The notes beneath the pieces are model-generated. The model had not been told where the DNA came from. It did no database searches and saw only the letters and a list, made by a program, of their open reading frames with translations. From a virus, in IMG/VR virus record IMGVR_UViG_3300031706_000047, positions 1 to 23,499 of that record: a stretch of 23,499 bases of DNA. One strand, 5' to 3'. Below are positions 7,666-18,596 of the stretch, in pieces. How positions within the stretch are numbered: the stretch's first letter is position 1; every line of letters begins with the position of its first letter. A program made the position numbers and the translations under genes.

Positions 7666-7815
7666 CTATGTTAGTGAGACGATAACTATAATCATTAGAA
7701 TTAATAACAACCAAACGTAGTTCCAAATAAATTCTAACGTTCCTAATAAAAATTTAACAGCTGCAAAAAATATCACGACCATTACGAATAAGTAAAATAG
7801 AGCTGCTAGTTCCAC
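7666..7815 (-). CDS. Small membrane protein (49 aa, GTG start)
   Basis: A 49-codon frame starts at a GTG inside the last codons of the preceding gene, with GGGAA upstream. The product is almost wholly hydrophobic, with two likely membrane helices (LFYLFVMVVIFFAAVKFLL; then WLLLILMIIVIVSL). A shorter version from the internal ATG at 7782 (38 residues) is possible. It fills the only gap between two genes of this operon. Function unknown. Confidence 0.6.
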   Translation of the reverse strand: MELAALFYLFVMVVIFFAAVKFLLGTLEFIWNYVWLLLILMIIVIVSLT

Positions 7816-8932: not shown

Positions 8933-8975
8933 AATTTTCTCCTTTATCTATTTGTGTTTTCGATTTGATAAATCT

Positions 8976-9004
8976 ATTATAACTGGTTAGACTGCAGATG
9001 TCAA
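8976..9004 (-). promoter_or_regulatory. Sigma-70 promoter for the 8932 gene
   Basis: Leftward TTGACA (9004-8999), 17-bp spacer and TATAAT (8981-8976), both perfect, with the recurring ACCATTGACAT flank. It diverges from the rightward topoisomerase promoters. Confidence 0.87.
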
Positions 9005-9080: not shown

Positions 9081-9109
9081 TTGACATTCACAAAGAACTA
9101 TTGTATAAT
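9081..9109 (+). promoter_or_regulatory. Sigma-70 promoter P1 of the topoisomerase operon
   Basis: TTGACA (9081-9086), 17-bp spacer and TATAAT (9104-9109), both perfect. A transcript from here has a leader of roughly 90 bases before the topoisomerase gene and reads through the second promoter. Confidence 0.85.
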
Positions 9110-9167
9110 GGTATCATAACGAATTGATTGAGAAGGTTATAGCCTTGAGATTAAATTTAAATAACCA

Positions 9168-9196
9168 TTGACATCGACAGCAAACTGTGTTATAAT
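9168..9196 (+). promoter_or_regulatory. Sigma-70 promoter P2 of the topoisomerase operon
   Basis: TTGACA (9168-9173), 17-bp spacer and TATAAT (9191-9196), both perfect, with the ACCATTGACAT flank. Transcription would start near 9203, only about 4 bases before the first usable ATG. Confidence 0.87.
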
Positions 9197-14808: not shown

Positions 14809-14837
14809 TTGACATTCACAATGAAACCTGTTATAAT
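14809..14837 (+). promoter_or_regulatory. Sigma-70 promoter of the uvsY-uvsW operon
   Basis: TTGACA (14809-14814), 17-bp spacer and TATAAT (14832-14837), both perfect, preceded by AATAACCA as in two other promoters here. It begins three bases after the preceding stop codon. Confidence 0.88.
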
Positions 14838-14868: not shown

Positions 14869-15306
14869 ATGGATACAAATGATATATCAGTAATATGGGC
14901 AGCTGATTCACCAATAGACGAAACAAACCTCTTAGGTGAAAGTAAAAGAATCCCGTCGTTACACAGTAAGTACTATAACCTTTATTATAGAGAAGTCTTG
15001 CGTGTTAAAAAGTTAAAGGCCGAATATAAAGAATTGGAAATGGACAAACGTAATTGGTACGATGGTTCTATGGCTGAAGAAGATCTGAGAGAAAAAGGAT
15101 GGAAGCCGTTTCAAAGAAAGGTAATAAGAAACGATTTGGATAAACATATTCAAGCAGATAAGGATGTTATTAAATTAAGTCTTACGATTGATTTCCATAC
15201 TGCCAACGCAAACTACCTCGAAGATATTATTAAAACAATACATAGCAGAAACTTCGTCGTTAAGAATATGATTGATATATTGAAGTTTCAGTCAGGAGAT
15301 TATTAA
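14869..15306 (+). CDS. uvsY: UvsY recombination mediator
   Basis: Matches the T4 UvsY family, which loads the UvsX recombinase on single-stranded DNA coated with gp32. Length is 145 residues (T4: 137). The aligned features are a Y-x-x-x-x-x-RV-K-L-K/E region with many lysines, the Y(D/S)G block (RNWYDGS), and the conserved ADKDVIKLSLTIDF stretch (about 103-116) followed by the IKTIHSRNFVVKNMIDILKF end. The neighbouring uvsW supports the call. GGAATAGATT serves as the ribosome-binding site. Confidence 0.9.
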   Translation: MDTNDISVIWAADSPIDETNLLGESKRIPSLHSKYYNLYYREVLRVKKLKAEYKELEMDKRNWYDGSMAEEDLREKGWKPFQRKVIRNDLDKHIQADKDVIKLSLTIDFHTANANYLEDIIKTIHSRNFVVKNMIDILKFQSGDY

Positions 15307-15524: not shown

Positions 15525-16012
15525 AGATGCATACATTAACAGATGGTAGAATCATTAGTGATAACAAAGCGCGGTTTATTATCTACGAAGCCTTTAATCA
15601 TATTAAGGTTATAGAAGGTTTGCCGATACGAAATAAAGTAAGAGCATTCGAAGAAATAAAAGGAATGATTCCAGGTTGGCATGTTGTTGGTATAACAAAA
15701 GATGCATTGGAAGTATTCAGAAAATTAAATTACAAACGTCCTCCGGGTCGTGGCGAAGATGGTGTAAATAGATCTCATCAATATTCTAGATCAGCAACAT
15801 ATAAAAGTATGTTTGAAAAGTACGATTGGTCTTTTAAAGAATTTTGGGATTTTATTGATGAAAGAGATAATACTGTATTAGCAACGACAAAAGAAAACTA
15901 CTCTAAAGGCAAAGAGCTCTCAGCTTACGATGTACCAGAAGGTTTATTCGAATCTTACGGTTTTGCTTATAGAGTTAACGAAAGGGAAATCCAATTTCTT
16001 AAAAGCTTATGA
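15521..16012 (+). CDS. Hypothetical protein next to uvsW (163 aa)
   Basis: Not recognised with confidence. It starts at a GTG overlapping the previous stop (GTGA) and ends overlapping uvsW (ATGA), so it is coupled to both. The centre is basic (YKRPPGRGEDGVNRSHQYSR) and the stretch DNTVLATTKENYSKGKE resembles the W/L-x-T-x-x-EN-x-x-x-K element of HNH-type nucleases, but no convincing HNH metal site can be drawn. A DNA-related role is only suggested by the company of uvsY and uvsW. Confidence 0.65.
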   Translation: MKMHTLTDGRIISDNKARFIIYEAFNHIKVIEGLPIRNKVRAFEEIKGMIPGWHVVGITKDALEVFRKLNYKRPPGRGEDGVNRSHQYSRSATYKSMFEKYDWSFKEFWDFIDERDNTVLATTKENYSKGKELSAYDVPEGLFESYGFAYRVNEREIQFLKSL

Positions 16013-17502
16013 GTGAAAGAATAGAAGTAGAATTAATTGATTCAGTATATATGCGCATTAAAGCGGATGCTGGATTAAAAACAGAGTTGTCTGATTTCTT
16101 TGCGTTTAAACCAGAAGGTTATCAGTTCAGCCCAAAATATAAAGCAAGAGTATGGGATGGGACCATTCGGTTGTTTCAAGCAATGCGTCCTGTATTATAC
16201 GTCGGCCTATATCCGCATCTAAAAAAGTTTTGTGAACAAAGAGATTATGTTTTAGAAGCACCAGCGTCAATAGCAGAACAGGAGAATATCGAAGATGGCT
16301 ACGTTGAAGAGTTGGCTGAAGAAATTAATTGTAAGTTTAAACCAAGAGACTACCAAATCGAGTATATCAATAACGCTCTGCGTAACCGTAGATCTTTATC
16401 TCTATCACCGACATCATCTGGTAAGTCTTTAATTATTTACCTGATACAACAACATTACTATCGAGCACTTGGTTTAAGAACGTTAATTATTGTTCCTACT
16501 ATATCTTTAGTACATCAGATGTCTGGCGACTTTGTTGATTACGGTTGTGATGAAAACGATATCTATAAAATACAAGGTGGTGTTGATAAGAATACGAAAG
16601 CAGCTATTGTTATATCCACATGGCAATCTTTAGTGAAACAAGATAAGGATTGGTTTGGTCAATTTGGTTGTGTGATGGGTGATGAAGCTCATACCTTTCA
16701 AGCAAAGTCTTTAACAACCATTATGCATAAACTCGAAGATTGCGAATTCCGACATGGATTTACTGGTACTCTAAAGTCTGCTGAAAGCAAGACACATAGA
16801 TTAGTACTCGAAGGTTGTTTTGGAGAAGTAAAAAGAATCGTATCTACAAAGAAATTAATGGACGAAGGTACGGTTGCAGATTTTGAAGTTAAAGCGATTG
16901 TATTGAATCATAGTAATGAAGCGAAGGCTGCGTTTAAAAAGGCAATGGGACAAGTGAAAGAAGCAGTTCGTAAATGGCCTGCTGAAAGAGAATTCATTGT
17001 TAATCATGTAGGAAGAAACAATTTTATAAAGAATTTGGTTTGGTCTCTGAAAGATCAGAATAACTTGATTCTATTTGACTTGGTAGAAAAGCATGGTAAG
17101 GTACTTGCCCCTCTGTTAGAAAAAGAAGGACGTGAGCTACATTTTATATACGGTAATACAAAAGGAGAAGAACGTGAACGAATTCGACATTTGGTTGAGA
17201 ACGACCCGCTTAAGCAACATAACATCCTTGCATCCTATGGAGTTTTTAGTACTGGTGTTAACATTAAAAGACTTGATAACGTAATCTTTGCTTCTTCATC
17301 TAAATCTGAGATTAAAGTATTACAATCAATTGGTAGAAGTTTACGTAAAGCTGAGGACTCGCAGAAAGCGGTCCTCTATGATATCGCTGATGATTTGTCG
17401 GTAGGTAGTTACGAAAACTATACATTAAAACATTTTAAGTCGAGAATCGAAATCTACTCTTCAGAGGAGTTTGCATTTAAGATCTTTACAATTGATATCT
17501 AA
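16009..17502 (+). CDS. uvsW: UvsW-type DNA/RNA helicase
   Basis: Superfamily 2 helicase of the T4 UvsW type, which remodels recombination intermediates and stalled forks and unwinds R-loops. Length is 497 residues (T4: about 500). Motif I SPTSSGKS is at 133-140, motif II DEAH at 225-228, motif III GFTGTL shortly after, and in the second RecA domain ILASYGVFSTGVNIKRLD and QSIGRSLRKAE give motifs V and VI. The N-terminal ~110 residues match the extra UvsW DNA-binding domain position. Last gene of its operon. Confidence 0.95.
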   Translation: MSERIEVELIDSVYMRIKADAGLKTELSDFFAFKPEGYQFSPKYKARVWDGTIRLFQAMRPVLYVGLYPHLKKFCEQRDYVLEAPASIAEQENIEDGYVEELAEEINCKFKPRDYQIEYINNALRNRRSLSLSPTSSGKSLIIYLIQQHYYRALGLRTLIIVPTISLVHQMSGDFVDYGCDENDIYKIQGGVDKNTKAAIVISTWQSLVKQDKDWFGQFGCVMGDEAHTFQAKSLTTIMHKLEDCEFRHGFTGTLKSAESKTHRLVLEGCFGEVKRIVSTKKLMDEGTVADFEVKAIVLNHSNEAKAAFKKAMGQVKEAVRKWPAEREFIVNHVGRNNFIKNLVWSLKDQNNLILFDLVEKHGKVLAPLLEKEGRELHFIYGNTKGEERERIRHLVENDPLKQHNILASYGVFSTGVNIKRLDNVIFASSSKSEIKVLQSIGRSLRKAEDSQKAVLYDIADDLSVGSYENYTLKHFKSRIEIYSSEEFAFKIFTIDI

Positions 17503-17533
17503 TCGTACTATATACCTTAAAGGCGATAACCTT

Positions 17534-17562
17534 ATTATACAAGGACTTTCATCTAATGTCAA
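17534..17562 (-). promoter_or_regulatory. Leftward sigma-70 promoter with no gene, antisense to uvsW
   Basis: Leftward TTGACA (17562-17557), 17-bp spacer and TATAAT (17539-17534), both perfect, with the CTATTGACAT flank shared with the promoters at 4944 and 8445. Transcription would begin near 17527 and run antisense into uvsW. No leftward gene of useful length lies downstream. Confidence 0.75.
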
Positions 17563-17599
17563 TAGTTTTTTTCATATTTGTGAAAATAAATTTAAACCA

Positions 17600-17628
17600 T
17601 TGACATATAAGAGTAAATAGATTATAAT
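17600..17628 (+). promoter_or_regulatory. Sigma-70 promoter of the gp55 operon
   Basis: TTGACA (17600-17605), 17-bp spacer and TATAAT (17623-17628), both perfect, with the ACCATTGACAT flank. It is divergent from the leftward promoter at 17534-17562, with 37 bases between the two -35 boxes. Confidence 0.88.
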
Positions 17629-17664: not shown

Positions 17665-18198
17665 ATGGCTAAGAAAAAGAACTACGTAAATAATAAAGAT
17701 CTCCTTGCCGCATTAATCGAATATAAGAGTAAGTGCGTTGAGGCAGAAGAATGTGGAGATAAGAATCCACAAGTACCCGACTACATTGGCAAGTGCATTA
17801 TGTTAATTGCACAACGATTAGCAACACGACCAAATTTCAGTGGATACATGTATAAGGAGGAAATGGTCTCAGACGGAATCGAGAACTGTCTACAATATAT
17901 ACATAACTTTAATCCAGAGAAATCGCAAAATCCGTTTGCTTACTTCACTCAAATCATTTGGTATGCATTCCTCCGTAGAATCTCGAAAGAGAAGAAGCAG
18001 ATGTATATTAAATTCAAAGCATCACAAAGACAAATGTATGACAACGAAGTATTTGATTCTACTGGTGATGCTGTGACCGCTAATATATTACCTGATTACA
18101 TTAATGAATTCATTGATGATTTTGAAGGCAAGCTTAAAAAGGCAAAAGAAAAGAACGCTGCTGAGGCAGAAGAAAAGAAGAATAACGCAGCAGAGTAA
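17665..18198 (+). CDS. 55: Late-transcription sigma factor gp55
   Basis: Matches the T4 gp55 family, the small sigma factor that directs host RNA polymerase to late promoters with the sliding clamp as activator. Length is 177 residues (T4: 185). The SGYMYKEEMVSDGIENCLQ region followed by FNPEKSQNPFAYFTQIIWYAFLRRI is the sigma region 2-like core and helix. The C-terminus is rich in lysine and glutamate. AAGGAG lies 12 bases before the ATG. Its presence gives a reason to expect ATAAATA late promoters in this genome. Confidence 0.92.
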   Translation: MAKKKNYVNNKDLLAALIEYKSKCVEAEECGDKNPQVPDYIGKCIMLIAQRLATRPNFSGYMYKEEMVSDGIENCLQYIHNFNPEKSQNPFAYFTQIIWYAFLRRISKEKKQMYIKFKASQRQMYDNEVFDSTGDAVTANILPDYINEFIDDFEGKLKKAKEKNAAEAEEKKNNAAE

Positions 18199-18203
18199 AA
18201 GTT

Positions 18204-18596
18204 ATGTTTGATTATGATAAGGCTTTTGACTATAAGAAGCCCTCAATTCAGATTATAGGTAAATGGCAACCCTGGCACCAAGGTCATACAAATTTATTCA
18301 AAAAGGCCTTGACATTCACAGGACAAGTTGTTATAATAGTTAAAGATGTATACAAATCGGAAGGAGAAGACTCTCCATTCGGTGAGATTGATGTTATTAA
18401 CCAAATAACAATATCATTAGAAAAAGAAGGCTACTATGATGGACAGCAATATATTATTGTATGTACTCCAAATATAGTAGGGTCTCTCAGCGGACCTGGT
18501 AATGGAATATCTAACTATGATATGAAATCGTCAGGTCTAGATTATATTATGTCAAGTGAAATTAGAGAACAATTGAGAAAAGAAGGTAAATTATGA
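18204..18596 (+). CDS. Nucleotidyltransferase of the cytidylyltransferase/adenylyltransferase fold
   Basis: Small enzyme with the HIGH-type nucleotide-binding motif as WHQGHTNLF (about 24-32), the early beta-strand IQIIGKWQPW, and a C-terminal MSSEIREQL stretch matching the ISSTxIR element that binds the triphosphate. Members transfer CMP or AMP to phosphorylated substrates such as glycerol-phosphate, pantetheine phosphate or nicotinamide mononucleotide; which one cannot be told here. Length is 130 residues. It overlaps the deformylase gene by ATGA and contains a promoter within its reading frame. Confidence 0.85.
   Translation: MFDYDKAFDYKKPSIQIIGKWQPWHQGHTNLFKKALTFTGQVVIIVKDVYKSEGEDSPFGEIDVINQITISLEKEGYYDGQQYIIVCTPNIVGSLSGPGNGISNYDMKSSGLDYIMSSEIREQLRKEGKL
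18309..18337 (+). promoter_or_regulatory. Internal sigma-70 promoter within the nucleotidyltransferase gene
   Basis: TTGACA (18309-18314), 17-bp spacer and TATAAT (18332-18337), both perfect, lie inside a coding frame. TTGACATTCACA is identical to the -35 regions of two intergenic promoters. It could supply deformylase, gp47 and gp46 with transcripts independent of gp55. Confidence 0.7.

Follow-up and report, generated by a model that had tools for sequence, protein, structure and literature searches.

Between the genes uvsW and gp55 of a T4-like phage lies a leftward promoter that has no gene, called PL here. The reading that we favour, with a probability of about one half, is that PL works as an early promoter, conserved and non-coding, under the control of a repressor-type protein, and that its firing tunes the timing of late genes through gp55 and uvsW. 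Several elements can be read directly from the DNA: the promoter and its conservation, an inverted repeat at its start site, the sharing of this putative operator among cyanophage promoters and its concerted change there, and an overlap with the promoter of gp55. For the candidate regulator, phrog_661, an AbrB-type fold is predicted. How early, middle and late expression is timed in cyanophages and related marine T4-like phages, which lack MotA and AsiA, has been called unknown (PMC2984593).

A promoter without a gene beside gp55

The window, i.e., the whole 23.5-kb viral contig analysed here, belongs to a T4-like phage, a distant kin of the cyanophages and of the Methylophilales and Stenotrophomonas T4-like phages, and carries uvsY, uvsW, gp55 and gp47-like genes. 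PL reads TTGACA-ttagatgaaagtccttg-TATAAT, in agreement with the sigma-70 consensus of TTGACA and TATAAT placed 16 to 18 bp apart. The initial annotation had described this promoter, and the perfect rightward one standing back to back with it and serving gp55, exactly as they appear when the sequence is re-read (Table 1). The window contains 10 perfect TTGACA-N15-19-TATAAT sites against 0.05 expected from shuffles; nearly all the others precede a gene on the same strand, and PL does not. The absence of a gene had also been correctly recognized: there is no leftward ORF of at least 60 aa between uvsY and PL, the longest one there (56 aa) lies within uvsW, and the nearest leftward gene found by a simple gene caller is 8.6 kb away.

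Table 1. Coordinates of the features discussed (window positions unless a genome is named)
Feature	Position	Strand	Basis or remark
Orphan leftward promoter PL	17534..17562	-	TTGACA-N17-TATAAT
Predicted PL transcription start (A, seventh base after TATAAT)	17527	-	sigma-70 geometry alone
Inverted repeat adjoining the PL -10, putative operator	17520..17533	-	AAGGT TATC GCCTT, -6 to about +8
A+T-rich spacer separating the PL and PR -35 boxes	17563..17599	.	37 bp; sequence
Rightward promoter PR for gp55, divergent from PL	17600..17628	+	TTGACA-N17-TATAAT
gp55, late-transcription sigma factor	17665..18198	+	phrog_234, E 6.5e-64
uvsW helicase, 3' end antisense to the predicted PL transcript	16009..17502	+	phrog_16 and others
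uvsY	14869-15306	+	downstream of early promoter 14809
Early consensus promoter ahead of uvsY, read-through into uvsW possible	14809..14837	+	sequence
Only other window-clade consensus promoter with a start-site repeat; drives a leftward early operon	8976..9004	-	repeat AGATTTATCAAATC, 8961-8975
Predicted PL start in Syn9	about 123,698	leftward	
Non-PL operator-promoters	Syn9 52741+; G006 53334+; G007 48992+, 14252+		genome scan

Two observations concern other perfect promoters of the window. The one at 18309-18337 (+), in sense orientation within an NMN-adenylyltransferase-like ORF, is also perfect in the relatives G001 (24086-24114) and G005 (7757-7785) and probably drives deformylase and gp47/gp46. 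Tandem promoters at 9081-9109 and 9168-9196 (+), with a conserved leader between them, precede the topoisomerase II large subunit; the longest ORF begins at a TTG that belongs to the -35 box of the second promoter, which makes ATG 9204 the more probable start codon of this subunit.

By its sequence, PL is a real, non-coding promoter under strong purifying selection. From viral contigs, 130 loci around gp55 and uvsW were retrieved, and 60 distinct relatives were compared together with the window. All 61 distinct uvsW-gp55 intergenic regions have PL at the same place, with a perfect -10 in 59 cases and TAGAAT in two, and the promoter is retained down to about 70% uvsW identity; its loss in close relatives, which the initial annotation had named as the observation that would speak against it, was looked for and not seen. 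Over these 61 regions, pairwise identity averages 1.000 in the -35 and 0.989 in the -10 but 0.56 in the 17-bp spacers; the spacers come in 40 different versions, 16 or 17 bp long. Of the 61 gp55 promoters, 51 are perfect.

PL extends well beyond the window clade. A leftward TTGACA-17-TANNNT is present in 80/80 cyanophage-type gp55 loci (44/44 distinct), and most Methylophilales-phage-type loci have TTGAC(A/T)-17-TATATT/TATAAT; Melnitz was scored without a -10 when paired to a TTGACA -35. Besides P-SSM4, PL was found in 13 cyanophages or marine single-cell viruses, as well as in Stenotrophomonas phage DLP6, each time between the GC139 gene and gp55; in cyanophages it thus lies after this ('methylamine utilization') gene and not directly after uvsW. 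In the near-complete genomes G006 and G008 (176 and 179 kb), PL is the only reverse-strand TTGACA-N16-18-TANANT, and in G007, also near-complete, one of two. In 67 of the 80 cyanophage loci, PL and the gp55 promoter overlap at their -35 boxes by 16 or 7 bp, so that polymerase can hardly occupy both and mutual exclusion is expected. In T4 and RB3, gp55 is found in a different gene context and no equivalent of PL was detected.

The inverted repeat and its copies elsewhere in the genome

The repeat at the start of PL and its sharing in cyanophages were absent from the initial annotation. Nearly all relatives present the same -10/repeat architecture, with variants that include AAGGTT-ATC-AACCTT, AGGCT-ATC-AGCCT, CTCAT-TT-ATGAG, AGCC-TTAT-GGCT and, in DLP6, TCAGG-TGTCG-CCTGA. 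In most cases the arms begin with the first base after the -10, and the predicted +1 falls in the middle of the repeat, i.e., a palindrome covers the start site, as looked for in a repressor operator. Arm complementarity in the window clade is above that obtained by permutation (p<0.0005, 20 distinct arms) and exceeds that of 213 control promoters, with p about 1e-13 when related sequences count as independent. The 5' arm of the repeat lies upstream of the expected start, which favours reading the repeat as a DNA site; a 5' RNA hairpin of the PL transcript was rejected as the main reading, this arm being at -6 to -2. Most mismatches between the arms are X.G, T.G and A.G alike, and therefore give no proof of an RNA strand. 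An intrinsic terminator of uvsW was also rejected (no U-run, weak stem), as was a short rightward ORF starting at ATGTCAATAG, which is not conserved.

In the window clade, the repeats of PL and of the promoter at 8976 carry different arms within one genome, except in L105, where the 8976-type repeat (AGATTTATCGAATCT) is 13/15 identical to the PL repeat. A further copy at 9133 of the window (AAGGTTATAGCCTTG, 13/15) is probably a coincidence: the relatives have a longer AAGG...CCTT stretch and no operator.

In cyanophages, the PL operators, e.g., AACACTGTCAGGGTT-type sites, are shared with other promoters. Scanning whole genomes of about 175 kb for promoters followed by the repeat gave two sites in Syn9, two in G006 and three in G007, PL being among them, and in each of these genomes the second operator copy is identical to that of PL or differs by one base. 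The PL operator is likewise shared with a further promoter in ACG-2014b, S-RIM2, S-RIM8, Sf-FR1, DSL-LC02 and Sf-FS3, and the sharing was seen by eye in P-SSM4 and DLP6. The arms are of type AACAC in Syn9, G006 and ACG-2014b, AACCA in G007 and S-RIM2 (AACCA/AACCT in S-RIM8), AACTC in Sf-FR1, DSL-LC02 and Sf-FS3, and AAACC in P-SSM4. In this last phage, a promoter with AAACCTTGTAAGAGGTT, of AAACC type like PL, lies upstream of the phrog_661 gene (NC_006884.2, about 51125-51170; L398:826-872). PL and the second site carry operators of the same type in 8 of 10 genomes. By permutation p is about 1e-4, but the phages are related and not independent, so the agreement speaks for concerted change without giving a clean probability. 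A single diffusible DNA-binding protein is suggested by the persistence of one variant at sites about 70 kb apart. The complete genome of S-CRM01 has PL and its repeat, and no second operator copy was found in it within 3 mismatches.

A third operator-promoter directly precedes a CpeT-like gene (ACG-2014b 12569, S-RIM2 13313, G007 14281; L365, L369), which resembles by eye the CpeT-like gene of Syn9 and, with this promoter, would join the same regulon. As a side observation, the second operator-promoter of Sf-FR1 (PV340855, 45510-45530, minus strand; L378) has no clear ORF downstream and is possibly another orphan regulated promoter.

phrog_661, a candidate regulator

In Syn9, G006, G007, ACG-2014b, S-RIM2 and S-RIM8, the second site drives the genes phrog_718 - phrog_707 - phrog_661. 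An operator-promoter stands upstream in 51 of the 57 phrog_661 operons with at least 700 bp of upstream sequence, mostly about 690 bp ahead. phrog_661 is a protein of 56 residues. Its match to the Pfam MazE/AbrB family PF04014 (E 2.5e-4) reaches 21.4 bits, below the curated cut-off of 24.7, and its match to TIGR01439 scores 14.0 against a cut-off of 28.3; a sequence-profile search of the PDB gave no match. The AF2 model, built as a monomer, has a pLDDT of 85.7 and a b-b-a-b-b order, and the top PDB matches in Foldseek are SpoVT, MazE and AbrB (prob up to 0.99, TM up to 0.74, best E 0.14), weak E-values being expected for only 56 residues. By its modelled fold, phrog_661 is AbrB-like, outside curated family membership.

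The protein was found in 318 phage records, P-SSM4 included, and also in DLP6 and in G002, a distant relative of the window. It was not detected in the complete genomes of S-CRM01 and Melnitz-2, which counts against a circuit built on it, and was not found in the close window-clade contigs, all of them partial; nor did these yield any regulator gene for the repeat of that clade. In cyanophages, phrog_661 is the best candidate for the regulator of PL, whose operator it would bind. With the swapped-hairpin regulators AbrB, MazE and SpoVT and the autoregulated antitoxin operons it has in common the predicted fold, the small dimer-type regulator and a palindromic operator on its own operon; unlike antitoxin operons, it has no recognised toxin partner and would have an additional, unlinked target at gp55.

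A possible timing circuit and the alternatives

We propose that PL would be read by the host sigma-70-type RNA polymerase and that a dimeric repressor-type protein would bind the inverted repeat centred on its start. In cyanophages this protein may be phrog_661, which, through the same operator on the promoter of its own operon, would repress both itself and PL. As long as it fires, PL would compete with the divergent gp55 promoter, given their overlap in most cyanophages, and/or its antisense transcription would enter the late module at the uvsW end. Accumulation of the regulator would then switch PL off and release the expression of gp55 (and uvsW), helping to set the early-to-late switch; occlusion or antisense, either would delay functions that are made late in T4. 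A distance of 36-75 bp separates the -35 boxes in the window clade; occlusion would therefore be weak, and antisense transcription, collision or supercoiling would be needed. The antisense idea stays alive there because uvsW, which lacks a promoter of its own, is situated downstream of the early promoter 14809. We infer that phrog_661 is the binder, that its binding represses and that the timing of gp55/uvsW is the purpose. More tentatively, the circuit can be formulated for marine T4-like phages lacking MotA and AsiA in general: an early, self-repressing, AbrB-type phrog_661 might silence a non-coding promoter that excludes gp55 transcription, and thereby time the passage from early to late expression.

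What such a circuit offers is an operator that can be named, a widespread protein family as the source of a candidate regulator, few targets in each genome and a connection with the late sigma factor. The open-access papers searched gave no description of the PL element (subscription papers, e.g., the Syn9 transcriptome, were outside the scope), and what we regard as new is the circuit, a variant of divergent promoters under repressor control. Among its closest known kin is the lambda PR/PRM type, which shares with PL/PR the back-to-back sigma-70 promoters, an operator over one start and, probably, autoregulation of the regulator; unlike in lambda, the phage is lytic and T4-like, the regulator AbrB-type, one promoter gene-less and its partner that of a late sigma factor.

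The initial annotation had proposed an antisense brake on early uvsW. In its strict form, where cis-antisense RNA or convergent polymerase collisions would specifically lower early uvsW and gp55 would not be a target, this proposal seems to us rather unlikely. The brake itself is conceivable: PL is conserved and antisense to uvsW, it points toward uvsW in every clade, and uvsW in the window would be within the transcript of promoter 14809, with no late motif just upstream. In L088, L123 and L127, the interval between PL and gp55 holds an inserted rightward methyltransferase-like gene, which occurs in two different versions, and PL is still about 30 bp from the uvsW end, which counts against the role at gp55. 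Moreover, T4 expresses UvsW from a late promoter, and the protein unwinds the R-loops of origins (PMC3016281). What is weakened is uvsW as the specific target, since the PL transcript of cyanophages first crosses GC139, for about 0.45 kb, and the synonymous sites in the last codons of uvsW are unconstrained (entropy 0.78-0.92 vs a mean of 0.68). There is therefore no conserved RNA structure at this 3' end; complementarity itself needs no constraint, so these sites leave the antisense reading standing. A comparable case of non-coding antisense transcription in a T4-like cyanophage is the CfrI RNA of S-PM2 (PMC2984593, PMC5931967), that of PL being predicted; CfrI covers the antisense strand of psbA and of a homing endonuclease gene, whereas PL is located at gp55/uvsW and has an operator.

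It is improbable that the PL transcript serves as RNA primer at an R-loop replication origin, in the manner of oriF of T4. Both are promoter-dependent elements near uvsY-uvsW, oriF consists of a promoter with a sigma-70-type -10 and an A+T-rich unwinding element (PMC3016281), and PL is nearly the sole leftward consensus promoter in all-rightward genomes; for Syn9, a single origin was predicted, its place not being given (PMC2984593). However, GC skew shows no extremum at PL, the detrended minimum being about 22 kb from it in G006, G007 and Syn9, in a skew dominated by gene direction, and an origin does not explain an operator common to PL and ordinary gene promoters. In addition, oriF differs from PL by its MotA middle promoter and has no described operator repeat.

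We consider a short trans-acting small RNA very improbable: PL is non-coding and its 5' region is conserved in part of the window clade (TAAGGTATA), but Rfam gave no match, the downstream sequence is not conserved across clades, and a start at +1 leaves the 5' arm of the repeat out of the RNA. Finally, the second suggestion of the initial annotation, a relic of a lost leftward gene, or else mere chance, can practically be discarded in spite of the lack of a gene downstream, since no relative has a leftward gene there and PL is conserved in all of them with perfect hexamers.
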